Shown here: positions 6,496 to 18,119 of the stretch, in pieces
Numbering within the stretch: position 1 is the stretch's first letter
Layout of the letters: each line of letters starts with the position of its first letter
From: a virus
Direction: 5' to 3' (one strand)
Virus record (IMG/VR): IMGVR_UViG_3300009285_000361
Coordinates: 1 to 20,374 of that record
Length of the DNA stretch: 20,374 nt
Program-made: the position numbers and the translations under genes
Notes under the pieces: model-generated
The model's database searches: none
The model's input: only the letters and a program-made list of their open reading frames with translations
What the model was told of the DNA's origin: nothing

Positions 6496-7485
6496 TTACG
6501 CGACCGTGGCGTTGTCATTCTCCAAGTCGATGGTGTATTCCTTGCTGGTTTCCGCTGCGTTCCGGAAGCACTCGAAGTTGAAAGTTTCCTCGATCTGCCC
6601 CACGTCGCCCACCGGGGCGCTGTGCGAGGTGAGCCGGCAGTAAGGAAGCGTAATCGTGAGCTTCTCGCTACCGCTGTAAGCCCCGCCGATGGCCCCGCCC
6701 GTGCAGGTAAGCACGATCTGGAATGCGGTCGCCGCCATGAACTTGTCATAGCGAGCGAAGGATTCGAAGTCCAGGGTGAGCGACCCCGTGACAGCGATCT
6801 TGCCGTCGCGGGTCGGCTCGAAGATCGTTCGAGACCCCAACCGGCGCTTGTTGGCATTCAGGCTGTTGTTGATCGTGAGGTTGAAGTTCGCGACGTTGTA
6901 GGAGGCCCCGTCGATGGTGACAGCCCCCTGGGTAAAGACGATCAAGTTCTCCGCCGGAAGCGACGGCGAAGACTTGGCTCCGCGCGACTGGTTCTTGGCG
7001 ATGATGCTCGCTGTTACCTGAAGGAAAGAGTCCACGGCGGCAGCAAAGGTCATTTGATTGATCTTGCAGCCATCGTAGAGGAAAGCCTTGTTCTGATCCG
7101 GGGTGAGGAAGTCCGCGGAGTCCCGGAAAACCTCCAATGTGAAGGAATCGTCCACGTCATCGGCCGGGACAACGGTGTGCTTGGCGGAAGTTGCAGTGGC
7201 CGCGTAGGTGTACCCTGTGGAGCCAGAGAGGAACCGCAGCAAGCGCTCCCACCCCCCGTACATCGCGTCGAAGGCGATATCCCCCGCGTAAGCCTGCGAT
7301 CCCGCCGCCACGCGGGCAGTATCCACGCCGACCTTGTTCAGGGCACCGGACTTGACGATGGTGTGGTTGTCCACGACGGACTCGGAATTCACGTCGAGGA
7401 AGTACGACCTCGCCACCGCGGTGCCGTAAGTCGATTCCTCGCCATAGCCGACGTAAAGCTGGTGGCCGTGCCCTGCGGTTCCCAT
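6496..7485 (-). CDS. Major tail tube protein
   Basis: The 329-residue protein is the likely subunit of the tail tube. It begins with the YVGYGEESTYGTAVA pattern near residues 11-25, which is common to phage tube proteins, and shows repeated beta-strand segments such as GKIAVTGSLTLDFES near 228-242 that suggest the tube beta-sandwich fold with extra domains. The ATG at 7485 has an AGGAGGA site (7491-7497) 5 bases upstream, the strongest in the tail region, as expected for an abundant structural protein. The preceding stop TAG overlaps this site. It sits between the tail terminator and chaperone genes. The length is greater than the minimal tube protein (about 200 residues), so an added domain is possible. 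Confidence 0.88.
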   Translation of the reverse strand: MGTAGHGHQLYVGYGEESTYGTAVARSYFLDVNSESVVDNHTIVKSGALNKVGVDTARVAAGSQAYAGDIAFDAMYGGWERLLRFLSGSTGYTYAATATSAKHTVVPADDVDDSFTLEVFRDSADFLTPDQNKAFLYDGCKINQMTFAAAVDSFLQVTASIIAKNQSRGAKSSPSLPAENLIVFTQGAVTIDGASYNVANFNLTINNSLNANKRRLGSRTIFEPTRDGKIAVTGSLTLDFESFARYDKFMAATAFQIVLTCTGGAIGGAYSGSEKLTITLPYCRLTSHSAPVGDVGQIEETFNFECFRNAAETSKEYTIDLENDNATVA

Positions 7486-7495
7486 CGTGATCCTC

Positions 7496-9385
7496 CTACG
7501 CCCGAGCGCGCACGCGCACTCGAAGGGTTAATGCGACTGCAAACACGTGGCCGTGGCCGTGGTAGACATCCTCGGGAGGACGGACCTCGGCACGGTCCAC
7601 GATACAATATGCTATCTGCCCTTGGGTTATCTTTCCACCCGGTTTGTTCAACTGCCGGAAGTCCGCGAAGAGACCGACCAACATCCCCAGCGAGTCCGCA
7701 CGCAGGCGAACCACGTCGTCCGTGGTCGCGTACTCGCGGGCGAAGTTGATCCGGTAGAAATAATCCAGGTCGTATCCCCGCGGCATGTCCGCCCAACGAA
7801 TTCGGGCGTCAACAAAATCCACAAGGCAAAGCGGGAGCAAAGAACTCTGATCCCGGAGATTCGGGTAGTCCCGCAGCGTTCCATAGTTCGCGTTGCGCGC
7901 GAGGTTTAGCCGGTTGGACGCGGAAAGGTTACTATTCACGAGGGTCATAATGGCCTCGGTGATCTCCGAAGCGTCCCAGATGTTCGCGGCCCCGTTGGGG
8001 ACGACGGTGTGGATCTCCCCGAAGTCTCCTGCGGTGACTCCGTTCAAACCCTGGAAGGCGATCTCATAAACAGAGTTCTCCGTCAATCCCGTAATCGACA
8101 TCGTTGCCCCGGAAGCAACCGAGGAATTCGTGGCAGTGTAGGTCCAAGTGTTGGGAGTTGCGAAGTTTTGCACCCGGTAAGCCATTCGCCAGCCGTCGAT
8201 ATTTGATCCAGGGAAAGTGTCCAGATACCCCGTGAGCGAAGTCGCTGCGACGGACGACACCCGCCCACCAATGGCCGCGGTGGGCGCAGTCGGTGTGCCG
8301 ATAGTGCAGGAAATCGTCCCGTCCCCCAGGGATACGCGCTGATGCCCGTCAGACGTGAATTGTGCCTGGATATAGAAGTATCGTCCCGAAGGATCGGTCT
8401 CGGCTTGTAGCTGCGCCAGCGTTAACCACGAAGCATTGTATGACCCACCCCCCAAAGTGTTCGTAGCCTTGTACTTGTACTGGACAGTCCCAACCGTCGC
8501 ACCCTCGAAGTTCTCGAAGGTATCGATGGTGCTCATATCCCACGAAGTGTCATTACTCCCGCCGTCTAAGGGAGCGAGCGTAGCTGTGGGGGACGTTGAG
8601 AGAAATGGGTTTATCGCCGTTGTTGCGGGTGTGAAGCCGACAGTATGTAATTCGACTCCATAAACTTCGATCTCGTCGATATTTCCTAACCAGTTACGGT
8701 TGTCGCTATTAACCTGAGCCCCCACAGCGAACAAAGAACTGGTGGGCTGTGAAAACGCGGCAGTTACCGCGGTTGACACGGCGACAGATACGCCGTCGAT
8801 GAATATCTGCATCCGGTTGTTTGCGTCGGACCACGCAACTTCCATGTGATACCAAGTTCCTGACACCGGGGACCACGCCACGCTTCTGGTGTCCGATGTT
8901 CCAGATGGCGCTGACACGTCGAAAGTAAGTAATCCGTTGGTGTTGTGCCACAATCGAATTCGGTTGTACCCCGCTGGAGCATCCACGGAGTATAAGTCCA
9001 CAAGGAACCGTATCGCCGATGGGGCTCCCGTGTATGCAGGTCGTGCCCACATCGATATAGTTCCCTCCGCTCCGGGGTGTATCCCCGCACCAGAAGAAAC
9101 GAGCGCAACCTGTTTAGTGGACGTGTCCCACAAAAACGAGGAGGCCCCAAACTTCGGATTAGTGGTATCTCGCGTCGGGGATGTCGCCTGGATGGTTTGT
9201 CCGATGGCTCCAGCGGAGTAGATTTCGAGCGGCCCCGCTTGATCGCAGTCCAAATAGAAAAGTAAATTTGAGACTTGTTGAGATAAACGAAGGCCGGTGG
9301 CCCGAGAACCGTCCGCGCGGGTTTCTTCGACCCCACTATCAAGCGTGGCCCCATCGACTGAAATCGGAATCGTAACCGTGGTCAT
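7496..9385 (-). CDS. Tail terminator-like protein with N-terminal LamG/lectin-like and Ig/Fn3-like domains
   Basis: This 629-residue protein appears to be a fusion. Residues about 35-250 look like a LamG/concanavalin-A-like jelly roll: GTISMWARP at 108-116, WYHMEVAWSD at 178-187, MQIFIDGV at 192-199 and IDEIEVYGVEL at 236-246 are typical positions of that fold. Residues about 275-362 and 370-465 are beta-rich and Ig/Fn3-like (TGLTENSVYEIAFQGLNG at 432-449). Residues about 468-629 begin with a helix (ASEITEAIMTLVNS), then an LPLCLVDF strand, a YFYRINFAREYA strand, a helix DSLGMLVGLFADF and a final strand pair ending in basic residues. That order, and its place just before the tail tube gene, fit a tail terminator. 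The ATG at 9385 overlaps the previous stop (ATGA). The terminator assignment is inference. Confidence 0.65.
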   Translation of the reverse strand: MTTVTIPISVDGATLDSGVEETRADGSRATGLRLSQQVSNLLFYLDCDQAGPLEIYSAGAIGQTIQATSPTRDTTNPKFGASSFLWDTSTKQVALVSSGAGIHPGAEGTISMWARPAYTGAPSAIRFLVDLYSVDAPAGYNRIRLWHNTNGLLTFDVSAPSGTSDTRSVAWSPVSGTWYHMEVAWSDANNRMQIFIDGVSVAVSTAVTAAFSQPTSSLFAVGAQVNSDNRNWLGNIDEIEVYGVELHTVGFTPATTAINPFLSTSPTATLAPLDGGSNDTSWDMSTIDTFENFEGATVGTVQYKYKATNTLGGGSYNASWLTLAQLQAETDPSGRYFYIQAQFTSDGHQRVSLGDGTISCTIGTPTAPTAAIGGRVSSVAATSLTGYLDTFPGSNIDGWRMAYRVQNFATPNTWTYTATNSSVASGATMSITGLTENSVYEIAFQGLNGVTAGDFGEIHTVVPNGAANIWDASEITEAIMTLVNSNLSASNRLNLARNANYGTLRDYPNLRDQSSLLPLCLVDFVDARIRWADMPRGYDLDYFYRINFAREYATTDDVVRLRADSLGMLVGLFADFRQLNKPGGKITQGQIAYCIVDRAEVRPPEDVYHGHGHVFAVALTLRVRVRARA

Positions 9386-9672
9386 GCAGCAAGGACTTCC
9401 AAAGCCGCACGAAGGAACGCCTCGCGCAAGGTGCCACCTTCGCCGGTTTGTTCCGTCGTGCCGTCTGCGGAGACCGCGTGGACTTTGTACCGCGGGACTC
9501 CCCCCTGGGCAGGGTCATAGCCGTCTACACGGCTCACGTGCCAGCCACGTCCGTATAGAATGTCCATCGCCGTATCAGCGGTGACGTTGGCGGAATCTCC
9601 GGGACCGAGGACGACTCCCAAGCAAGCGAGAAGCTCGACTCCCAGGGTTTGCTCCGCTTGCGTGAAAGTCAT
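9382..9672 (-). CDS. Small phage protein, ABA-sandwich-like
   Basis: This 96-residue protein starts at ATG 9672, overlapping the stop of the gp10-like gene by ATGA, and ends in an ATGA overlap with the next gene, so it is translationally coupled on both sides. It has an N-terminal helical part, a central strand pattern with GRGWHVSRVDGY near 41-52 and VPRYKVHAVSAD near 59-70, and a C-terminal helix TLREAFLRAALEVLAA near 81-96. A tryptophan strand, a Tyr-x-Val strand and a terminal alanine-rich T-x-x-E-A helix resemble the phage ABA sandwich domain. It occupies a spot where a neck or tail terminator protein is often found, but it is too short for a usual terminator. Role in the virion is unknown. 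Confidence 0.7.
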   Translation of the reverse strand: MTFTQAEQTLGVELLACLGVVLGPGDSANVTADTAMDILYGRGWHVSRVDGYDPAQGGVPRYKVHAVSADGTTEQTGEGGTLREAFLRAALEVLAA

Positions 9673-10178
9673 GGTCCCCCCGCGGCCAAAATGGTTTGCA
9701 TGGCCTGCTGAACATCGGACTTCAATTCCTTAGCTCCCTCTTCCCCCGCCGGGTAGAGGTATGGCTGCGCCGGCACTCCGGGGTGCATGACACGATCCGC
9801 GAACACCGTGCCCCCCAGATACCCGGTGAAGACGAGCTTGGTAGCGCGAATGGGGACGATCTCGATGGGTTGACCCACGGGGTGTGACCGAGGCTCGCTG
9901 TCCGGGGGCGTGAGAGTTGTTCCGGAGGTCCCACCCAATGCTGTGCCAAATTCCGTCGCGGCGGCGTGCGGAGCGTTGAAGTAAATCGCCGCGTCCAGGG
10001 TATCCCCTTCGGCGGTGACTTCCACCCCCGATTGCAGACGGAGAGCCCCAGTCTCCAAGGGTGCAAGCTGTTGCGCGGTGCGCTCGACCGCTTGCGCGCG
10101 AGCGTCCAAAAGATCCTCGCCCCACCCTCGGAAGCGAGAAAGCAGTTCCAGCTTGGTGAGAAGATTCTCGATACCCAT
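9669..10178 (-). CDS. HK97 gp10-like neck/tail-completion protein
   Basis: The 169-residue protein matches the HK97 gp10-like family found at the head-tail junction of many siphoviruses. Diagnostic features are LETGALRLQS at 41-50, YFNAPHAAATEFGT at 66-79 and the hallmark HPGVPAQPYLYPA at 132-144, followed by a C-terminal helix. An insert of about 45 residues between the EFGT and HPGV motifs is longer than in the smallest members. The ATG at 10178 starts 3 bases after the previous stop and has a GAGCGAG site. The gene order connector, head closure, gp10-like, terminator fits the standard neck module. Confidence 0.88.
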   Translation of the reverse strand: MGIENLLTKLELLSRFRGWGEDLLDARAQAVERTAQQLAPLETGALRLQSGVEVTAEGDTLDAAIYFNAPHAAATEFGTALGGTSGTTLTPPDSEPRSHPVGQPIEIVPIRATKLVFTGYLGGTVFADRVMHPGVPAQPYLYPAGEEGAKELKSDVQQAMQTILAAGGP

Positions 10179-10181
10179 GTG

Positions 10182-10496
10182 TTACTCGCTCTGTAGCCGT
10201 CGGGCGATGCAACGGTAGTGGAACTCGTACTCCTCGACAGTCTCGATCTCGTAAGTCACATCGCCCTTGACTACCTGGAACCCCGGAGCGACGGTATGCG
10301 CCTTGTGGACGAAGATCGTAAACCGTTCCTGGGCCGGGATCGCGCCCAAGTTAGTTAGGAACTCCTTGGTCTTCAAAGGCGAAATTTTGACCTGTGCGGA
10401 AGTCTCGTTCGAGGCATAGGACACCGAGTAGGGCGCGGTAGTCCCGGACCGGGTGCCAGCCTTGATAGTCGCAATCTCGGTTAGTCCGAACAGCAT
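10182..10496 (-). CDS. Head-closure-like protein
   Basis: This 104-residue protein lies between the gp6-like connector and the gp10-like protein, the usual position of the head-closure (stopper) protein that seals the filled head. It is predicted to be beta-rich, with segments such as TAPYSVSYASNETSAQVKIS near 20-39, RFTIFVHKAHTV near 58-69, FQVVKGDVTYEIETVEEY near 73-90 and a final strand FHYRCIARRLQ. The VVKGDVTYEI pattern (a loop in which a coordinate or field is defined) is common in head-closure proteins. The ATG at 10496 begins 3 bases after the connector stop. The call rests on order, size and this strand pattern. Confidence 0.65.
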   Translation of the reverse strand: MLFGLTEIATIKAGTRSGTTAPYSVSYASNETSAQVKISPLKTKEFLTNLGAIPAQERFTIFVHKAHTVAPGFQVVKGDVTYEIETVEEYEFHYRCIARRLQSE

Positions 10497-10499
10497 GGA

Positions 10500-11123
10500 C
10501 TACCCCAGAACCGGGAAGAAGTCGTCCACCGGGGGATCTACCCGACGCCACACGTCCAGAGTTTCTCGGAACGCGGTTGGAATAGCCTTGTCCTCCATAA
10601 TAACGAAAAGTCCGCCCTCGGCACGCTGTCGAATTCCGCGGACCCCGGCCCCGCGGTAGAGATACGCCGCGAACTCGATGCCAACCCGTTTCAGCGCTTC
10701 CGGGGTCGTGGCGTAGCCGGCGGTGTAGACCACCTTGATGTTCTGGGTTCCCCGCACCCAAATGGCGTCACCCAGACACCGGAGAATCCCCTCCGCGCTT
10801 TCTACTACGTAATCGTCGTCCGCAGGGCTGGACTGCCCGGTGAGCCACGCAGTTGCCGCCGCGAAATTCCGTTGCCCGTCCACGTTTACAGTCGTTGGAT
10901 TTCCGATGAGCGGGTAGTTGCGGAGGTTTAGGACTGGCGTATCGTTGCCGTCGTGGTACTCCGTGTAAGCGGTGGAAAGGATAGTCCGGTCGATGTACGC
11001 GAGGATGACCTCCGTCGCCCGATTGATGGCATCGTCCAACTGCGTGTCGTTGGTCGTACCCGACAGGCGTAGGAAATCCTTGAGATCCTGCTGCGAGCAA
11101 AGGGCGTTCGTGTTGACGGTCAA
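10500..11123 (-). CDS. Head-tail connector protein (gp6-like)
   Basis: The 207-residue protein looks like the adaptor ring that binds beneath the portal. It starts with a helical segment CSQQDLKDFLRLSGTTNDTQ near 9-28 followed by LDDAINRATEVILAYIDRT near 29-47, the typical opening of gp6/gp15-type connectors. A middle beta-rich insertion (near 50-125) ends with IKVVYTAGYAT near 128-138, a strand-turn motif widespread in this family, and then helices that finish the fold. The start is TTG at 11123, 3 bases after the glycosyltransferase stop, preceded by a GGGGGG purine run within that gene. No in-frame ATG is available near the N-terminus without losing the first helix. Confidence 0.85.
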   Translation of the reverse strand: MTVNTNALCSQQDLKDFLRLSGTTNDTQLDDAINRATEVILAYIDRTILSTAYTEYHDGNDTPVLNLRNYPLIGNPTTVNVDGQRNFAAATAWLTGQSSPADDDYVVESAEGILRCLGDAIWVRGTQNIKVVYTAGYATTPEALKRVGIEFAAYLYRGAGVRGIRQRAEGGLFVIMEDKAIPTAFRETLDVWRRVDPPVDDFFPVLG

Positions 11124-11126
11124 GGA

Positions 11127-12191
11127 CTACCCCCCGATGGGCTCGAAAGTGACCGGCTTGCGCCCCTTACGCGCCGCGGGCGTGAAAGCGTTGAGCGCTG
11201 AAGGAACCGGCGCAGACGCGGCTTTGGTTGCGAGGGGGCCTTCCAGCCGCCACTCAGCAGTGTTGGCGAGGCTTGCCGCGTGCGCCAAGGTTGTAACGAT
11301 TCGCTCGCCCGAGGACACATCTACGACCACCGCGGCATCCCCGTAGCGAATGATAGGCGGGCGCTCGGGATCGGCTGCGGTGGGCTGCGCCGGAGCATCG
11401 GACGCTACGCGAAAGTCCCGCGGGAAGTCCGCGAGCAACCTCCGGGCAACGGCCTCGGGAACTTCGACCACACCGGGGTGATCCAAGGACAGTCCTGTTC
11501 CCCGGTATACCGGGCGCGTCCGAGCCAAGAACTCGATTTTCAGTTGCCCCACAACTGGACCCCTTTCCTGCATTCGATCAATCCACGCTGCGTGCGGGGC
11601 TTCGTGCCCCTGGAGCCATTGGTAATACGCTGCGCGGGCCTCCCGTCGCTCTCTAGTATACTGCCGGACCTCGTGGAGAAGAATCGGAGAGTCCAAGACG
11701 GGCCGGGGCAGGTGGTTCCGGCACTGTGTCCCCACGAAAAGCCCGAAATGGGTGTGCCGGTACTCCAAGCCTCTTTCATGGCGAAACACCCGGTACTTTC
11801 GCTCGGGGATATTCCGTCCGTCTTGCCGGATAAGCCAGAGATCCGCGTCCGAACCGTCGAAGCCCGGCCAGACGCCTTGAGGGATCTCGTCGGCGTCGAT
11901 CGTCACATAGAGATCCCCCGGTTCCCCCACGAGGTAAGCACTCCGCTTGGCGACCTCGGAGGACCAGGGCGAGCCCCGTGGAGCCTCGATCAGGTGATCG
12001 GCAAGGGATCGGGCCACATCGAGCGTGTCGTCTGTGGACGCGCCTGTATCGACTCCAGGGAACTGCGCATAGCGACCGTCCACGACGATGATCTGAACGT
12101 CTGACGGAAACGAAACACGGGTGGCCCGGAGCATCCGCTCCAGACCACCCGCGCAGTTGTAGACGCTGCAAACTACAAGCAGCTTGGGCAT
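11127..12191 (-). CDS. Glycosyltransferase (GT-A, family 2-like) fused to a small phage head-associated domain
   Basis: The product is 354 residues from the ATG at 12191. The N-terminal part is a GT-A glycosyltransferase: MPKLLVVCSVYN gives the first strand, IIVVDGRY (34-41) the nucleotide-sugar strand, and VTIDADEIPQGV (96-107) the D-x-D metal-binding motif. Residues about 216-264, with RPVYRGTGLSLDHPGVVEVP and VARRLLADFP, resemble a short domain that stands alone after the capsid gene in other phages. The last 90 residues are basic, Ala/Pro-rich and end TFEPIGG. The start was chosen because the first strand begins there, 8 bases after the capsid stop; a frame opening at 12260 would add 23 unlikely residues inside the capsid gene. 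It may glycosylate a virion or host surface component; the target is unknown. Confidence 0.8.
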   Translation of the reverse strand: MPKLLVVCSVYNCAGGLERMLRATRVSFPSDVQIIVVDGRYAQFPGVDTGASTDDTLDVARSLADHLIEAPRGSPWSSEVAKRSAYLVGEPGDLYVTIDADEIPQGVWPGFDGSDADLWLIRQDGRNIPERKYRVFRHERGLEYRHTHFGLFVGTQCRNHLPRPVLDSPILLHEVRQYTRERREARAAYYQWLQGHEAPHAAWIDRMQERGPVVGQLKIEFLARTRPVYRGTGLSLDHPGVVEVPEAVARRLLADFPRDFRVASDAPAQPTAADPERPPIIRYGDAAVVVDVSSGERIVTTLAHAASLANTAEWRLEGPLATKAASAPVPSALNAFTPAARKGRKPVTFEPIGG

Positions 12192-12199
12192 TGTTGGGA

Positions 12200-13588
12200 C
12201 TAGACGGTATCGGCCACGTTGTACAGAAATGCCGTGTGGTTCTTCCCGCTGCCCTCCCACGAACCGAAGTCCCAGCGCGCGGACACGTTGATCTTGTCCT
12301 GGTCCACGCGGGAGTCATTGAAGACCTTGACGGTCACGCCGCGTCGCTCGCCCAGAGTCCAGGCCGTGCGGTTGACGATGACGATGACCGTCTTCGTTGT
12401 GGTCGTGCCGTCGTAGACGCCCGAGGCGTTCAAGTTCTGCCGGCAGTCCTCGCTCACGACGATGGGGATGTTGTCCAGCTTGTCGATCTCGCCGCGAAGG
12501 ATGGACGCATTCGCGCCGTACTTCTCGGCGGTCTCGACCTGGGTGAGTCCCAGGATTCGCATGGCCCCGGCCACGGAGGTGATGATGGCGAGATCCTTCG
12601 GATTCGCCATGTACTTCGCACCCGTCGCGCGGGCGTTGCGGAACAGGGAGAGGGCGAAGGTCGCGCCATCGAACTGCATGGCCGCGGGCGCGTACTTGCG
12701 CAATCCTGTCCAGAGCTTGTCGGCATGCGTGGAGGAGTCCACGTCCGAGTCCTGGTGAGGCTCGGTCGTGTCGCCGTTGATAAGCGCCGAGTCCAGGCCG
12801 TGCGCCATCGCCTTGGTGATGAGGGCGCGGATCTTGGGCAGGACGGGGATGATCGAGTCCTCGTTCAGTTCCTCCGAAATCGGGATCTGGAAGCCGGCCT
12901 TCTTGGCGGTGAGCGTCAGCTTCCCGGTCGCCTGCGAGACCGAAGTGAACTGGCTCGCGGAGTTGGTCGTGGCCTCGGTCAGGATCTTCATCAAGGGCAG
13001 CGTGCCGTCGATGGGAGCCTGATAGGGATTGCTGGGCATCCGCGTGACATCGAAGAGGCTCGCCACGCCCGCCTCCAGCCGGACGACCTCGTGGAGCTTC
13101 GAGGATGTCTCGGTCGGGACCCATTCGTCGCCGACTGCGGTGCCGGTGGAGTACATCGCGGCCTTGGCGACGCGCGACGCCTTCACGACCTTCGCGCCCT
13201 GCTCGCAGAGCTTGGGGAAGCCCTTGCGAAGCTGGTGATACAGGCGGGAGTTGACCGCCGCGGGCGAAACCTGCCACACGGGGTTGTCCTCGTCCTTGTT
13301 CAGGAGCCGGACGTTGCCCAGGATCGAGTGGACGAGCACGAAATCATCGACGGCCTTCTGGAATCCCACGAGTTCATCCTTCTCGTGGTGCCCGAACAGC
13401 ACATCCTCGAAGTCCCGCACCTCCGTGATCCCGGGGCGGTCGGCGACCTCGGAGTGCGTGCTCTGCGTGCGGGCCGCGAGGGCGGCGATGCCCTTCTTGA
13501 TCTTCTCGGGATCGCCCTTGGCGCGGACGGCGTTGCGGATGTCCGAGGACTCCTTCCGGAAGGCGTCCAAGGTCGCGGTGGTCAACAT
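12200..13588 (-). CDS. Major capsid protein (HK97 fold)
   Basis: This 462-residue protein is the probable major capsid protein. An N-terminal helical region of about 80-100 residues (MLTTATLDAFRKESSDIRNA onward) could be a scaffold-like delta domain. Beyond it come the hallmarks of the HK97 fold: a long spine-type stretch with ELNEDSIIPVLPKIRALITK near 245-264 followed by the AMAHGLDSALINGD motif (267-280), a P-domain segment near 325-375 and a C-terminal strand HTAFLYNV. It has the best ribosome binding site in the head region, GAGGAGA at 13596-13602, 7 bases before the ATG, as suits an abundant protein. It follows the protease/scaffold gene, as in most HK97-like phages. Codons here are strongly G/C-ending compared with the tape measure gene. 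Confidence 0.93.
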   Translation of the reverse strand: MLTTATLDAFRKESSDIRNAVRAKGDPEKIKKGIAALAARTQSTHSEVADRPGITEVRDFEDVLFGHHEKDELVGFQKAVDDFVLVHSILGNVRLLNKDEDNPVWQVSPAAVNSRLYHQLRKGFPKLCEQGAKVVKASRVAKAAMYSTGTAVGDEWVPTETSSKLHEVVRLEAGVASLFDVTRMPSNPYQAPIDGTLPLMKILTEATTNSASQFTSVSQATGKLTLTAKKAGFQIPISEELNEDSIIPVLPKIRALITKAMAHGLDSALINGDTTEPHQDSDVDSSTHADKLWTGLRKYAPAAMQFDGATFALSLFRNARATGAKYMANPKDLAIITSVAGAMRILGLTQVETAEKYGANASILRGEIDKLDNIPIVVSEDCRQNLNASGVYDGTTTTKTVIVIVNRTAWTLGERRGVTVKVFNDSRVDQDKINVSARWDFGSWEGSGKNHTAFLYNVADTV

Positions 13589-13628: not shown

Positions 13629-13985
13629 CTACTTCGCGCCGTCGCCGTTGATGGCCCCGGCCAACTTCTCGGCTTCCATCACATCCGGGGCGCTGCGCAG
13701 GGCCTCGACGGTCGCGCTGAGTTCGCGGATCGTGTTCTGCTGCTCGTCGATGACCTCGGCGGACTTGGCGAGCACCTCGTTGCGCACGGCGACGGCCTTT
13801 TCCACGGAGACGAGGACGCCCAGGACGTACTGCGCCTGGTCGTTCGTGCTCTTGGCGAGGGCCTCGGCCTCGTCCTTGACCGGCGCGAAGCTCGGTACGA
13901 ACTCGACGCGCTCGGCTTCGACGGCCTTGGAAAGGGCGACTGCGGACTTCTGGATGGCTTCCAGGGTCGTCTTGATGGGCTCCAT
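13629..13985 (-). CDS. Nested scaffold protein from an internal start in the protease gene
   Basis: An in-frame ATG at 13985 (Met272 of the protease reading frame) is preceded, after exactly 8 bases, by AAGGAGA (13994-14000), one of the best ribosome binding sites in the window. The 118-residue product starts MEPIKTTLEAIQKSAVALSK, is rich in Glu, Lys, Ala and Val, and should form a long helix or coiled coil with no catalytic residues, as expected of an internal scaffold. Lambda C/Nu3 and several HK97-type phages use this same in-frame arrangement of scaffold inside the protease gene. The start is seen directly; the function is inferred from position and composition. Confidence 0.75.
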   Translation of the reverse strand: MEPIKTTLEAIQKSAVALSKAVEAERVEFVPSFAPVKDEAEALAKSTNDQAQYVLGVLVSVEKAVAVRNEVLAKSAEVIDEQQNTIRELSATVEALRSAPDVMEAEKLAGAINGDGAK

Positions 13986-14798
13986 GTGCTTCGTCTCCTT
14001 GTTGAGTTGGCCTTTCGCCACAAAGGATAGCTTGTTCGCAGGGTTGCGTACAAGGGAGACCTTCGTGACGAGAAGATTGACCATCTTCTTGACCCCGTTG
14101 GGCTCATGTTGCTTGTCACAGACCCCTTCGATGGACCAACCCGTGTAGACCCCCTGCTCGACCTCTTGCCAGCGGGCATCGGACTTGACCGTGAAACGTC
14201 CGCACCAGTCGGACTTACGGGCATCGATCTCAGAGATACCTGCGGGGGCGAGGTAACTCTCCACCGGCACCACGTCGGAGGCTACCTCGTCCGTGTGCTC
14301 AATGTTGACCACGCGGCTGTCCGCGAGCCACAGATGCGCGGCCTTGCGAAGCTCCACCTCATCCGTGTACTCGTTCTGGGCGTCGATCCGGTTGGCGGGG
14401 TAAATGACCCCGAAAAGTTCTCGCTTGTTGCCGGCCTTATGAAGTGGGATCTGGCGGGTAAAGGCCACGGACTTCTCGATCTTCTCATTCCCGGACTTCC
14501 TGGCTGGGTCCGGAGGGGGCGGCGGAGGACCCGCCTTCCTGTCTTGCTCGGCTTGAATCCGGCCGCAGATTCGCCGCGCAGATTCATCGTCGTGACCTTC
14601 CTTGGTGTGGTAGAGCACACAGGCGTCGAAAGTCCCCTCGCCATCCCCGAAATGAAGCATCTTCGTGGTATCTGTCCCGACTACCGGCTCCGTTGCAGCG
14701 GTGGCGACGGCCCGTTCGGTTCGTTCAACCGGGGAACCACCGAGGGCCTTGGCGACGGCAAGTTCTTGAGTCAGGCGAGCGATATAGGTCTTCGGCAT
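13629..14798 (-). CDS. Prohead protease, XkdF-like, with C-terminal scaffold-like region
   Basis: This 389-residue protein fits the XkdF-type putative serine protease that matures phage heads. Residues 130-262 hold the protease: FGVIYPANRIDAQNEY near 129-144, VNIEHTD with candidate catalytic His168, YTGWSIEG with candidate Ser222, and the terminal VSLVRNPANKLSFV (247-260) that resembles the usual VSLVDxPAN ending. The N-terminus has a small cysteine-containing helical motif FDACVLYHTKEGHDDESARR near 57-76, then a poly-Pro linker at 91-96. From about residue 272 the chain is charged and helical and looks like scaffold, with an internal start (see nested gene). There is no good ribosome binding site before ATG 14798. 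Confidence 0.85.
   Translation of the reverse strand: MPKTYIARLTQELAVAKALGGSPVERTERAVATAATEPVVGTDTTKMLHFGDGEGTFDACVLYHTKEGHDDESARRICGRIQAEQDRKAGPPPPPPDPARKSGNEKIEKSVAFTRQIPLHKAGNKRELFGVIYPANRIDAQNEYTDEVELRKAAHLWLADSRVVNIEHTDEVASDVVPVESYLAPAGISEIDARKSDWCGRFTVKSDARWQEVEQGVYTGWSIEGVCDKQHEPNGVKKMVNLLVTKVSLVRNPANKLSFVAKGQLNKETKHMEPIKTTLEAIQKSAVALSKAVEAERVEFVPSFAPVKDEAEALAKSTNDQAQYVLGVLVSVEKAVAVRNEVLAKSAEVIDEQQNTIRELSATVEALRSAPDVMEAEKLAGAINGDGAK
13994..14000 (-). promoter_or_regulatory. Internal ribosome binding site for the nested scaffold
   Basis: The minus strand reads AAGGAGA, 8 bases upstream of the internal ATG at 13985. It lies within coding sequence for residues LNKETK of the protease, where such a strong purine site would be unexpected by chance. 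The parent gene start at 14798 lacks a comparable site. Confidence 0.7.
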
Positions 14799-14842: not shown

Positions 14843-16189
14843 TTAGTCAAGCGCTCCTGACCCCGGATCAATACCCTGTTGTTTAGCGTAAAGCGTGGCT
14901 CGACGGCGTACCACATCCACCCACCGAGGTTCGATGTCCATGATCCGGGCCTTGCGCCCAGTTTTCATGCACCCCAACAGGCAAGTCCCGGAACACGCAA
15001 AGGGATCAAACACCAAATCCCCCTGCCGGGTGTGGTTCTGGATCGGTGTTTCGTAAAGCGCCACTGGCTTCATGTTGGGGTGACTCCGGTTCTGGTGCGC
15101 CGTATCATCCGGCACGTCCCACACCGTCGTCTGATTACGTTCGCCGTAAAACGGAGGGCGCGATCCCTGTTTCCATCCGTAAAAGCAAGGCTCGTGCTGA
15201 AACTGATAATCCCCGTAACCGAAGGATGGGCTAGATTTCCGCCAAATAATTTGTCGGTGAACCAGAATTTCAAGGCCCGTAAGGGCGGCGGAAAAAACTC
15301 CGTGCGTTCGATCCGCGAACCACACGTACCACGCCGCGTTTGGGGCCAATGCGCAGTCCCGAGCGTTCTTGAAGGCGGAGTCCAGGAGTTCTCGTAAAGC
15401 CTCGGGAGTGTCCAGGGCTATTTCCGTGACCCACTTCCGGCCTTTGCCTGACTCCGTTCCCGTAGCAACTTGCGCTTTGAAGCGGTCCTCGTCCGTGTAA
15501 TTCACGCCATATGGGGGGTCCGTGACCATGAGCGCTGCGTGCTCCCCAGCCATGAGGGCCGAGACGTGCTCGGGATTGCGGGCGTCGCCGCACATAACGA
15601 GATGCCCGTCCCCAATCGCGTAGATTTCGCCCAAAACGCTGGCAGGCGTTTCGGGCTCTTCTGGGCACACAGAACGTTCGGGCTTGGCAGGCGTACCAGC
15701 TTGCGCGACAAGCTTCGCGGCTATGGCCTCAAGTTCTTGAAGCCGCGTAGACCCATACAGGTCTGGTAACGCGGCGCGGGTTTGTTGAAGAAGTTCATCG
15801 AGTTGCTCGGTCCAATCCCCTTGGATCGCAGTGTTGTTGAGCGCGAGATTCAGAAGTTTCTCTTCGTTCTCGGAGAGATCCACCACCGAGACGGGAACTT
15901 CCGTAGCTCCGAGTTCCGCAAGGGCCTTCAAACGCTGGTGTCCCCCCACCACTCGGTGCAGCCTTCGGTTGAAAACAACGTCCTGTACAAGTCCAAACTG
16001 CGCGATGCTCGCGGTCAGCCCGCGCAAAGACGCGGCATCGATGGTCCGAGGATTGTACTCGGCGGGGTGTAATGCCGAGAGCGGCATCGTGGTGCGTGCC
16101 ACGACGGGCACACCTCGCAAAGGAGCCAAGGGCGACGCGGCGCGGAAACGTGCTCGAAGCTTTGCAAGCTTCTCGGGAATTTCAGGCAT
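14843..16189 (-). CDS. ParB-domain / DNA methyltransferase fusion
   Basis: This 448-residue protein has two recognisable parts. Residues about 32-120 are a ParB/Srx-type domain: YNPRTID near 45-51, FGLVQDVVFNRR near 65-76 and VVGGHQRLKAL at 80-90. Residues about 185-430 are an amino-methyltransferase: the catalytic DPPYGVNY at 224-231 comes first, then HPNMKPVALYETPIQN near 370-385, then the SAM-binding VFDPFACSGTCLL at 393-405. This order puts it in the beta group of N4-C/N6-A enzymes. No restriction partner is seen nearby, so it is likely an orphan methylase protecting phage DNA from host nucleases. The ATG at 16189 overlaps the portal stop by 8 bases with no clear ribosome binding site, so translational coupling is likely. 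Its place between portal and protease is an insertion in the head cassette. Confidence 0.92.
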   Translation of the reverse strand: MPEIPEKLAKLRARFRAASPLAPLRGVPVVARTTMPLSALHPAEYNPRTIDAASLRGLTASIAQFGLVQDVVFNRRLHRVVGGHQRLKALAELGATEVPVSVVDLSENEEKLLNLALNNTAIQGDWTEQLDELLQQTRAALPDLYGSTRLQELEAIAAKLVAQAGTPAKPERSVCPEEPETPASVLGEIYAIGDGHLVMCGDARNPEHVSALMAGEHAALMVTDPPYGVNYTDEDRFKAQVATGTESGKGRKWVTEIALDTPEALRELLDSAFKNARDCALAPNAAWYVWFADRTHGVFSAALTGLEILVHRQIIWRKSSPSFGYGDYQFQHEPCFYGWKQGSRPPFYGERNQTTVWDVPDDTAHQNRSHPNMKPVALYETPIQNHTRQGDLVFDPFACSGTCLLGCMKTGRKARIMDIEPRWVDVVRRRATLYAKQQGIDPGSGALD

Positions 16190-18119
16190 CGAGAACGGGG
16201 AGCGTTAAACACCGACACCCGAGGCGCGCTCCGGACTCTGCCTGTGCGTGGTGCGGGTGAAGAATCTTCTGGCCGTCCACCATGAATGGTGTTCTCAGGG
16301 GCGCGCGGAAACCATGAGCTTGCGCGTGCGTCGGCCGAGAATAAGCGTCCCGCTGTGAGAACCATGTGGTTTCCCGGACCTTGGCGAGCCAGTACGCTCG
16401 ATAAGCCGCGTGATTCGCGGCGGCAAACGCGAGGTCCATCGCGAGAACTCGCAAGCGAGGCCGAATGGTTTCTTCTGGGTCTTCGGACTTGTAGATCGCG
16501 TCTCGCAGGCCCGCGGAGAGAAGGTCCTCGACATGGCAGACCGGGGAGAGGAGAAGCCCTCCCTCGGATTTCGCGACCACATGCAGAATCTCGCAAGCGT
16601 CCTGGAACACGCCTTCATAACTCGCTGTGACCGTGGCCCCCAGCGGAGAGCGGAATTTCCTACCACTTTCGGCTAGAAGCGTCGGGAGTTGCGGATCGCG
16701 GCGAGTTGCCGCCTTGGCGACGGACAGTTGCGCATCGAAGGTGTCCTGAAGGATCGCTTCCAAAGACGGTGTGATATACCGAACCGCGGCGGTGTACGAC
16801 TTGAGAAGGTCATCGGCCCGCCCGGTCTGTCCGGAGTTAGACACAACCGGATTCGGAAGCGGAAGCTCCGGGGCCACGACGTTGACAGGCGTTCGCGGAA
16901 CGGTTTGCCCGGATGCTCCGGCCAGAGCATTCTTTCCCTGCGGCAAGATGTCCGTAACGAAGACTTCACCGGCCTCCGGAGGCAACGGGTCCAGGTTACA
17001 CCCGATCCGGGCCTCGTTGCGGGTGGCAAGGCCGTCGCGCCAGAGGCCCCGCCACTCTTGCTTGCGCTCGGTTAAAGTCTCTGCGGTAGTCAGGAATTCC
17101 TCAAACCGAGCTACAACCCGCGCGCCGTGAGACGCGAAGACATGCCGATTCAATGTGCCGAAAACTTTACGAACCTGCGGCTTGAGTGTCCCGGTATAGA
17201 AGACGTGCTTTTCTTCCTTGACCGCCGCTCGACCCGCTCCCCCGGAAATACCGACCAAAACAGGTGGAACTCCGCGAGCCATGAGAATCTTTTCGCGCGC
17301 CGAAGCACTCAAGTCCTTGAAGGCCATGTCTCGGTATGACGGGGTAAGAACCTGGACCTCCATACCTGCCGTGACAATCCCGATTCCGTGGGCCTTGTCC
17401 ACCCCACCGAAAGCAGCCCTCCAGCCAGACAGCAAACGCCGCTTCTGGATATTGGAGAGGATTCGATCCGTTTTGAGCACGATCCCGGGGAGTGCGTTAT
17501 TCGAGAAAAAGACCACGTTGAATCGCTGGGAGTAAAAATCAGCCAAAAGAGCTTGCCGAGACGGGACGCTGGGCGAGAGGCCCAATACTGGGTTGGATGG
17601 GTGAAAATGCCGGGAGATGACGATGTTCTCGGCGGGAATTACAGACTTCTCACGCCCGTCCACGTCCTCGAAGACCCAGGATTGTACCGTTCCATCGGGG
17701 TTGGTTTGGTAAACACTCAAGCGATCCGAGCGCGTGGGATACACGCTGGAGACCAATTCCCCGGCGTAAACGCGGTGAATCGGGACATGCCCGAACAATT
17801 CCCGGTAGAAAAAGCACGCCTCGATAAACTCAAACCACGTCCCGTCCTTGTAAGGCTCTTGCTGAAGAAGCACTGCCGGGTGATCGTCTGGAGCGGAAAC
17901 CCACTTGCCCATATCCCCCTTGATCTGAACGTCAAGGGGCATGTCCGCGGCATGATTCGCGATGCACTTGATGGCCGCGTAGTCATAAACCGTTCGGAGA
18001 GTAAGCTCCGCCTGGGAAAGGGTAGACTGCGTAACCTCGCCCATGTCGGCCACGTCCACGACCGGGTGCCGGTCCAGGGCACCTTTCGCGTACTCGATGA
18101 CAGCTTTGAAGATGTTCAA
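16182..18119 (-). CDS. Portal protein with MuF-like C-terminal domain
   Basis: The 645-residue protein is a portal of HK97/phage lambda type fused to a head-morphogenesis domain. Residues about 1-400 are portal: TVYDYAAIKCIANHAADMPL near 44-63, the NNALPG core segment followed by KTDRILSNIQKRRLL, and the RNEARIGCNLDPLPPEAGE stretch typical of the portal clip region. Residues about 430-645 resemble the MuF domain, ending in TTWFSQRDAYSRPTHAQAHG (584-603) and GCRCLTLPV (634-642), the usual W-x-D, paired His and C-R-C signature. Starting at TTG 18119, it overlaps the terminase stop (TTGA) and has GAGGA upstream. MuF-like domains in the portal chain are usually injected or scaffold-associated; here it replaces a separate gene. 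Confidence 0.92.
   Translation of the reverse strand: MNIFKAVIEYAKGALDRHPVVDVADMGEVTQSTLSQAELTLRTVYDYAAIKCIANHAADMPLDVQIKGDMGKWVSAPDDHPAVLLQQEPYKDGTWFEFIEACFFYRELFGHVPIHRVYAGELVSSVYPTRSDRLSVYQTNPDGTVQSWVFEDVDGREKSVIPAENIVISRHFHPSNPVLGLSPSVPSRQALLADFYSQRFNVVFFSNNALPGIVLKTDRILSNIQKRRLLSGWRAAFGGVDKAHGIGIVTAGMEVQVLTPSYRDMAFKDLSASAREKILMARGVPPVLVGISGGAGRAAVKEEKHVFYTGTLKPQVRKVFGTLNRHVFASHGARVVARFEEFLTTAETLTERKQEWRGLWRDGLATRNEARIGCNLDPLPPEAGEVFVTDILPQGKNALAGASGQTVPRTPVNVVAPELPLPNPVVSNSGQTGRADDLLKSYTAAVRYITPSLEAILQDTFDAQLSVAKAATRRDPQLPTLLAESGRKFRSPLGATVTASYEGVFQDACEILHVVAKSEGGLLLSPVCHVEDLLSAGLRDAIYKSEDPEETIRPRLRVLAMDLAFAAANHAAYRAYWLAKVRETTWFSQRDAYSRPTHAQAHGFRAPLRTPFMVDGQKILHPHHAQAESGARLGCRCLTLPVLDA

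Follow-up and report, generated by a model that had tools for sequence, protein, structure and literature searches.

Mycobacteriophages are reported to carry glycans on the capsid and the tail tube that protect the virion from antibodies (PMC11256854, PMC12363180 and PMC12619734, in their accessible portions). Among protein glycosyltransferases, the TPR domain of GmaR has been proposed to set specificity (PMC9638930), and FlmG owes its specificity to a flagellin-binding domain (PMC7591256), according to the accessible portions of both papers. A search of the openly licensed literature, by title and start of abstract, for fused or capsid-adjacent phage glycosyltransferases found no published fusion of the kind described here.

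The window, that is, the whole stretch of DNA analyzed, is a virus record of 20,374 bases. It contains a single open frame of 354 residues plus stop (12191..11127, minus strand) that joins a predicted glycosyltransferase to a small head module and a C-terminal tail. A sequence-only reading of the window had placed a fused gene at 11127-12191; the coordinates hold, and the gene is read on the minus strand, with the plus strand over this interval interrupted by stops. The motifs singled out in that reading, IIVVDGRY (residues 34-41), IDADE (98-102), VYRGTG (229-234) and VARRLLADFP (248-257), all fall in one uninterrupted frame.

The fused gene lies directly behind the capsid gene, as had been proposed. 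Its start is 8 nt past the stop of the major capsid gene (13588..12200; Pfam Phage_capsid E 6.2e-14, phrog_10 major head protein E 3e-19), and the gene for the head-tail connector or adaptor (11123..10500; phrog_442 head-tail adaptor E 6e-24, Pfam Phage_connect_1 E 5.5e-5) begins 3 nt past its end. The window genes named here are all on the minus strand. Upstream of the capsid gene are a portal protein (18119..16182), a protease (14798..13629) and, between the two, a ParB-like domain joined to an adenine-type DNA methyltransferase (16189..14843). The C-terminal part of the portal protein resembles the Mu F head morphogenesis protein (Pfam E 0.009; phrog_2468 E 7e-11). Downstream of the connector are a small head-completion-like gene (10496..10182), an HK97-gp10-like gene (10178..9669), a small gene with no assignment (9672..9382), a 629-residue LamG/fn3 protein (9385..7496; Laminin_G_3 E 2e-15 plus an fn3 domain) and the tail tube (7485..6496). 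Beyond the tail tube gene is a 1629-residue ORF that we take as the tape measure from its size and place. The LamG/fn3 protein has no PHROG match; its gene separates the neck genes from that of the tail tube. A virion sugar system involving this protein (7496-9385) had been suggested; the link is one of co-occurrence only.

A divergent glycosyltransferase family in phage head-tail clusters

We are confident that residues 1-209 (11565..12191, minus strand) are predicted to form a GT-A fold, GT2-like glycosyltransferase with an intact D-x-D motif. Database matches to the N-terminal half are weak by themselves. Pfam Glycos_transf_2 scores 12.2 bits against a curated cut-off of 23.3 (E 0.18 for the whole protein, 0.036 for the glycosyltransferase half), and the PHROG match is to glycosyltransferase phrog_7009 (E 4e-4 over 72 residues). 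The relatives that we tested likewise fall below their Pfam glycosyltransferase cut-offs, and the family is therefore divergent. The identity of this half is settled by its relatives, a family profile and the fold. The profile built here, which includes the window sequence itself, covers residues 3-204. An AlphaFold2 model of residues 1-210 has pLDDT block means of 78-98, and Foldseek aligns it with 124 PDB chains at E ≤ 0.001, the top matches being glycosyltransferases. The best fold matches are SunS (Foldseek E 1.4e-8) and ThuS (Z 15.9, rmsd 3.7, 189 aligned residues), followed by WrtF (Z 14.2).

Sixteen residues never vary in an alignment of 25 glycosyltransferases: V37, D38, G39, Y41, F44, P45, S52, W76, K82, R83, D99, D101, E102, H148, H173 and R182. 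These include VDG-x-Y of the VDGRY motif (residues 37-41, 12069..12083, minus strand) and D99, D101 and E102 of the DADE motif (residues 99-102, 11886..11897, minus strand). The D-x-D motif is thus kept in 25 of 25 aligned enzymes (alignment A7), and also in 8 of 8 in a further alignment (A10).

When the 25-row profile was compared with all PDB chain sequences, only four distinct sequences were found at E ≤ 1 and all are protein or peptide glycosyltransferases: GmaR (1e-9), two SunS sequences (2e-5 and 4e-5) and ThuS (6e-4). A search with alignment A3 gave a similar set plus one unrelated chain at 0.89. This kinship is the strongest hint at the class of acceptor, although the substrate cannot be read from a profile match. 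It bears on the possibility that the enzyme is merely located in the head cluster and acts on a host surface polysaccharide or lipid carrier (in seroconversion or superinfection exclusion) or on phage DNA. Enzymes acting on polysaccharide, teichoic acid and lipid-linked substrates do match the fold well, with TarS (Z 13.3) and DPM synthase (Z 12.7) not far behind WrtF, and some relatives occur in a sugar cluster (L094) or beside a nucleotide-sugar dehydrogenase gene (L014). However, the sequence kin in the PDB are exclusively protein or peptide glycosyltransferases, the position in the head cluster is conserved, and the enzyme is fused to a module from the head slot. We regard an acceptor on the host surface or in DNA as unlikely.

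Relatives of the enzyme were sought in several collections. Scans of viral contigs with the single glycosyltransferase, capsid and portal proteins found no relative, and tblastn of the glycosyltransferase found nothing in plasmids. In a phage collection, tblastn returned nine records, all from Mycobacterium phages (Omegavirus), over 71 residues at E 8e-3 to 1e-2. Direct BLASTP of the window enzyme against gp21 of the Omegavirus LittleE gives 43% identity over 86 columns (E 2e-9), and a gene akin to LittleE gp21 is present in 49 Omegavirus phage records. A scan of viral contigs with an alignment of four glycosyltransferases identified 47 loci; later scans based on other alignments recovered 20, 32 and 19 loci, some of them shared, and a scan of genome contigs gave two.

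The family is frequently encountered in head-tail gene clusters of phages. In 72 of 89 loci bearing the glycosyltransferase, it lies near at least one of a capsid, connector or tail-tube gene, although these 72 are neither independent nor complete, since the capsid, connector and tube profiles derive from these very loci and many of the contigs are truncated. Of the 89 loci, 47 have the end of a capsid gene no more than 2500 nt upstream of the glycosyltransferase, and in 22 this distance is at most 100 nt; downstream, 40 have the start of a connector within 1000 nt and eight have a tail-tube gene within 700 nt. The tally takes in the window, three annotated Omegavirus loci, two bacterial genome loci and near-identical contigs, and drops the repeats L001, L055-L058, L071, L076, L092 and L104. 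The remaining 17 loci include cut contigs and loci where the enzyme is on the terminase and portal side. Examples of the latter are L100-L103, and in L094 the enzyme is in the sugar cluster mentioned above. These loci point to a head-cluster family, with protein-glycosyltransferase kin, in many uncultured phages beyond the Omegavirus records.

Several further features of these loci were observed. The dehydrogenase gene of L014 (L014:3175-4521), of the UDP-glucose/GDP-mannose type, is upstream of the glycosyltransferase, and ORFs that resemble it by eye are present in L018, L033 and L036, which suggests a donor-sugar gene in the head cluster. The enzymes of L008 (L008:4461-5630), L009, L061 and L059 are extended at the N-terminus by some 180 residues, which by eye resemble a methyltransferase; L008 has no Pfam methyltransferase match. 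In L008, L009 and L061 the extended gene is just before the tail-tube gene. The enzymes of L063, L070, L100, L101 and L110-L113 have a C-terminal extension of several hundred residues that by eye resembles a second glycosyltransferase; L113 ends in DPxGRLLYGR-type repeats, and a phrog_442 connector gene follows about 1.4 kb downstream. In L095, L096, L097, L098 and L106-L109 the order is capsid, glycosyltransferase, an ORF that is gp10-like by eye, and connector, with no small module gene between.

The small head module and its second fusion

Residues 214-263 (11403..11552, minus strand) form a small module that, judged by an aligned core of about 23 residues (VVEVPEAVARRLLADFPRDFRV), is homologous to stand-alone genes of the phage head slot. 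Such genes came from a scan with a capsid alignment that yielded 17 relatives. In L077, L078 and L079 the capsid gene is followed by a gene of 69-72 codons and there is no glycosyltransferase; one short ORF intervenes in L079, and the connector directly follows the small gene in L078 and L079. In L072 a small gene of 97 codons overlaps the end of the glycosyltransferase gene. Similar short modules had been said to exist as separate genes between capsid and connector in other phages; at these four loci the module is indeed a gene of its own, past the capsid. A profile made solely from their four stand-alone proteins was compared with 165 ORFs of the window, and the glycosyltransferase ORF alone was significant (E 0.0025; next 4.2). 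None of 2000 shuffles of the C-terminal part scored as well.

Folded alone with its kin by AlphaFold2, the module shows strands-helix-strand in its first 50 residues (block means 76-92), with low values for the rest. The best match in a PDB fold search is a GINS-type chain (Z 4.8), which we take as no finding. YqbF (2hjq) matches weakly (Z 3.4, rmsd 2.6, 49 aligned residues), among unrelated chains of up to Z 4.8. In BFVD the best match is an 85-residue marine virus protein (E 4e-3), and one structure named DUF7210 appears at E 0.2. The best match of the module profile to PDB sequences has an E of 0.14. The C-terminal part of the window protein has no Pfam match to DUF7210; among the stand-alone kin, that of L078 matches DUF7210 below the cut-off (E 0.014, 15.4 bits against 27), and that of L079 matches phrog_2616 (E 0.002). 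In phages, tblastn of the module and two of its stand-alone kin found nothing. A FluMu-type N-terminal domain, with which a fold comparison had been proposed, did not emerge: the C-terminal 137 residues have no Pfam match at E ≤ 10, though for so short and divergent a domain this absence is weak evidence.

The small proteins of L053 and L075 look by eye like the same module, but profile and shuffle tests lend this no support, and a two-sequence profile made from them fails to find the window module. The small protein of L006 is borderline on the module profile (16 of 2000 shuffles better), and the L060-type small genes found no support as kin. A 68-residue ORF, L084:12491-12697, matches the module profile (E 0.0014) and phrog_2616 (E 2e-4); it belongs to a capsid relative and is far from the capsid gene. 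An alignment with short modules added (A6) was misaligned and was not used.

The rest of the protein, residues 264-354 (11130..11402, minus strand), is an Ala/Pro-rich tail with pLDDT block means of 34-56. It had been described as basic and Ala/Pro-rich; the composition is indeed 33% Ala plus Pro, but with nine K/R and nine D/E the tail is neutral, and only its last 25 residues are basic (four K/R versus one D/E). A second copy of the module in residues 274-354 found no support; AlphaFold2 shows a similar order of strand and helix there at low confidence.

Among the first 64 glycosyltransferase ORFs, the window alone carries the module, and the long C-terminal extensions of L063 and L067-L070 are by eye of a different kind. 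The same fusion was nonetheless to be found elsewhere: among 20 further loci that were read, one, L093 (contig IMGVR_UViG_3300036761_000864), from a distantly related phage, encodes a glycosyltransferase of 271 residues whose last 59 are the module. This segment scores 30.6 bits on the four-gene profile, with none of 2000 shuffles as good, and the glycosyltransferase part gives no match. Shuffle tests thus place the module beyond chance in the window and in L093 alike. The gene upstream in L093 is the 3' end of a capsid gene, identified with a capsid profile made here, and the gene downstream is a phrog_442 connector (E 9e-19). Linker and length of this fusion differ from those in the window, and a direct local alignment between the window and L093 is weak (15 of 1000 shuffles as good). 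A five-gene profile, to which the L093 module was added, was searched against ORFs of at least 40 residues in the loci examined; it finds its training genes, the L084 ORF (E 0.0014) and, with the E value of this larger set, the window (E 0.041), and no other glycosyltransferase.

In a tree of 27 glycosyltransferases, which has long branches, the window enzyme joins those of L053 and L075 (91/81), and the L093 enzyme joins those of L072 and L099 (85/88). The fusion probably arose twice, since a tree forcing the two fused enzymes together is disfavored by 16.4 log units (p-AU 0.022). The second case also bears on whether faulty sequencing or assembly of one metagenomic contig produced the fusion. 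The window is a single contig; stops in the other frames lie close to the junction, and one wrong base there could have merged two overlapping genes. However, L093 has this pair of domains connected by a different linker, and in the window a helix is predicted in this frame through residue 209, with pLDDT dropping from about 90 to 62-78. An error of this kind is very improbable.

One product or two

At the point where the separate genes start, the window has an in-frame GTG at residue 214 (11550..11552, minus strand), the domain boundary by alignment with those genes, and just 5' of it a Shine-Dalgarno-like sequence, AGGAAAGGGG (11560..11569, minus strand). A free module may therefore also be made from this codon. 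The predicted duplex with the anti-Shine-Dalgarno sequence is -7.3 kcal/mol; the enzyme's own ATG has no such sequence (+0.6 kcal/mol). In the nearest relatives of the window enzyme the order is the same and the genes are apart: 1 nt separates the glycosyltransferase stop from the ATG of the small gene in L053, and the two genes overlap or adjoin in L075. For these relatives, a shared slot refers to position only.

These arrangements are also what would be expected if the fusion were neutral, with the module a structural protein made mostly from GTG 214 and the enzyme glycosylating a virion protein without its help. Genes of the head slot are packed within a few bases, so two of them can fuse readily without any cooperation being implied. 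The separate glycosyltransferase and small genes of relatives overlap or are 1-11 nt apart, and stops in the other two frames at codons 204 and 217 leave a small step from two genes to one. By duplex energy the internal start is unremarkable: counting itself, it is among 19 of the 293 internal start codons that reach this value or better. Further, the fusion is found in two separate branches, and L093 lacks a comparable internal start: from residue 151 on, no ATG or GTG with a good Shine-Dalgarno sequence precedes its module, and the sole in-frame start close to where the module begins is a TTG (-3.0). The L093 module is therefore probably made only within the enzyme. No second copy of the module occurs among ORFs of at least 40 residues within 6856 of the 13,472 bases of the L093 contig. 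A neutral fusion is possible, and we consider it the less probable account.

The account we put forward, with about an even chance of being correct, is a glycosyltransferase of virion proteins that is tethered to head subunits by its module. The fused enzyme would work in the cytoplasm of the host while heads are being assembled. Its N-terminal domain would move a sugar from a nucleotide-sugar donor to a virion protein by way of a metal site at D99-x-D101, the likeliest acceptor being the capsid protein of the adjacent gene or else a neighboring head protein. The C-terminal module, in other phages a small head protein with its own gene between capsid and connector, would hold the enzyme on head subunits and so set its substrate. 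Activity, sugar, acceptor and tether are what we infer, whereas fold, motifs, kinship with protein glycosyltransferases, gene position, kinship of the module and the second fusion come directly from the computations. The observation made in the sequence-only reading is confirmed, and two of the outcomes that it named as refuting, no relative with the fusion and loss of the D-x-D motif in relatives, did not occur. Its interpretation, that the fused domain directs virion glycosylation, is partly supported, and more strongly than could be known at the time because the fusion recurs and the stand-alone module has been found.

Alternatively, the glycosyltransferase could itself be a virion part, built into the head or neck in place of the small head protein and carried in the particle, an arrangement that would probably have evolved at least twice. 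We think this quite improbable; if true, the particle-borne enzyme might work either on the virion or at the surface of the cell. For the tethered enzyme that we favor, the recurrence suggests that such enzymes are steered to the virus shell. A glycosyltransferase joined, apparently twice, to an otherwise stand-alone head-slot protein is a genetic hint at how it could find a virion target, and the fused gene offers a small, expressible protein pair for testing targeting.

Comparison with known systems

The Omegavirus protein LittleE gp21 (phrog_7009) belongs to the same glycosyltransferase family as the window enzyme and shares its motifs, with a family profile score of 239 bits (the profile includes Omegavirus rows). 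Its gene is likewise between those for the capsid (gp13) and the connectors (gp22-gp23). However, gp21 has no fused module and is followed by an unrelated small protein, phrog_6852, and three more annotated glycosyltransferases accompany it in LittleE. The virion glycosyltransferases Che8 gp110 and Corndog gp38 are also phage-encoded and, in the accessible portions of the reports on them, have the outcome proposed for the window, namely sugars on capsid or tail tube. Membership of the window enzyme in the Che8 gp110 family was ruled out, as the family profile scores Che8 gp110 at 0.4 bits. The gene for this proven virion glycosyltransferase, unlike that in the window, is near the 3' end of its genome.

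The small head-slot proteins (phrog_2616, DUF7210; the B. subtilis YqbF fold) are separate and are not joined to an enzyme, in contrast to the module in the window. For the enzyme half, GmaR (the Listeria flagellin GlcNAc transferase) and the peptide S-glycosyltransferases SunS and ThuS show profile-level kinship, which for SunS and ThuS extends to the fold. Their substrates, unlike the one proposed here, are bacterial or bacteriocin ones. SunS comes from prophage SPbeta. In the accessible portion of its description, GmaR carries TPR and antirepressor domains rather than a phage head module (PMC9638930). FlmG of Caulobacter differs in serving a bacterial flagellin system, and its likeness to the window protein, in the accessible portion of the source, is one of idea alone: it is a modular protein glycosyltransferase in which an extra domain binds the structural substrate.
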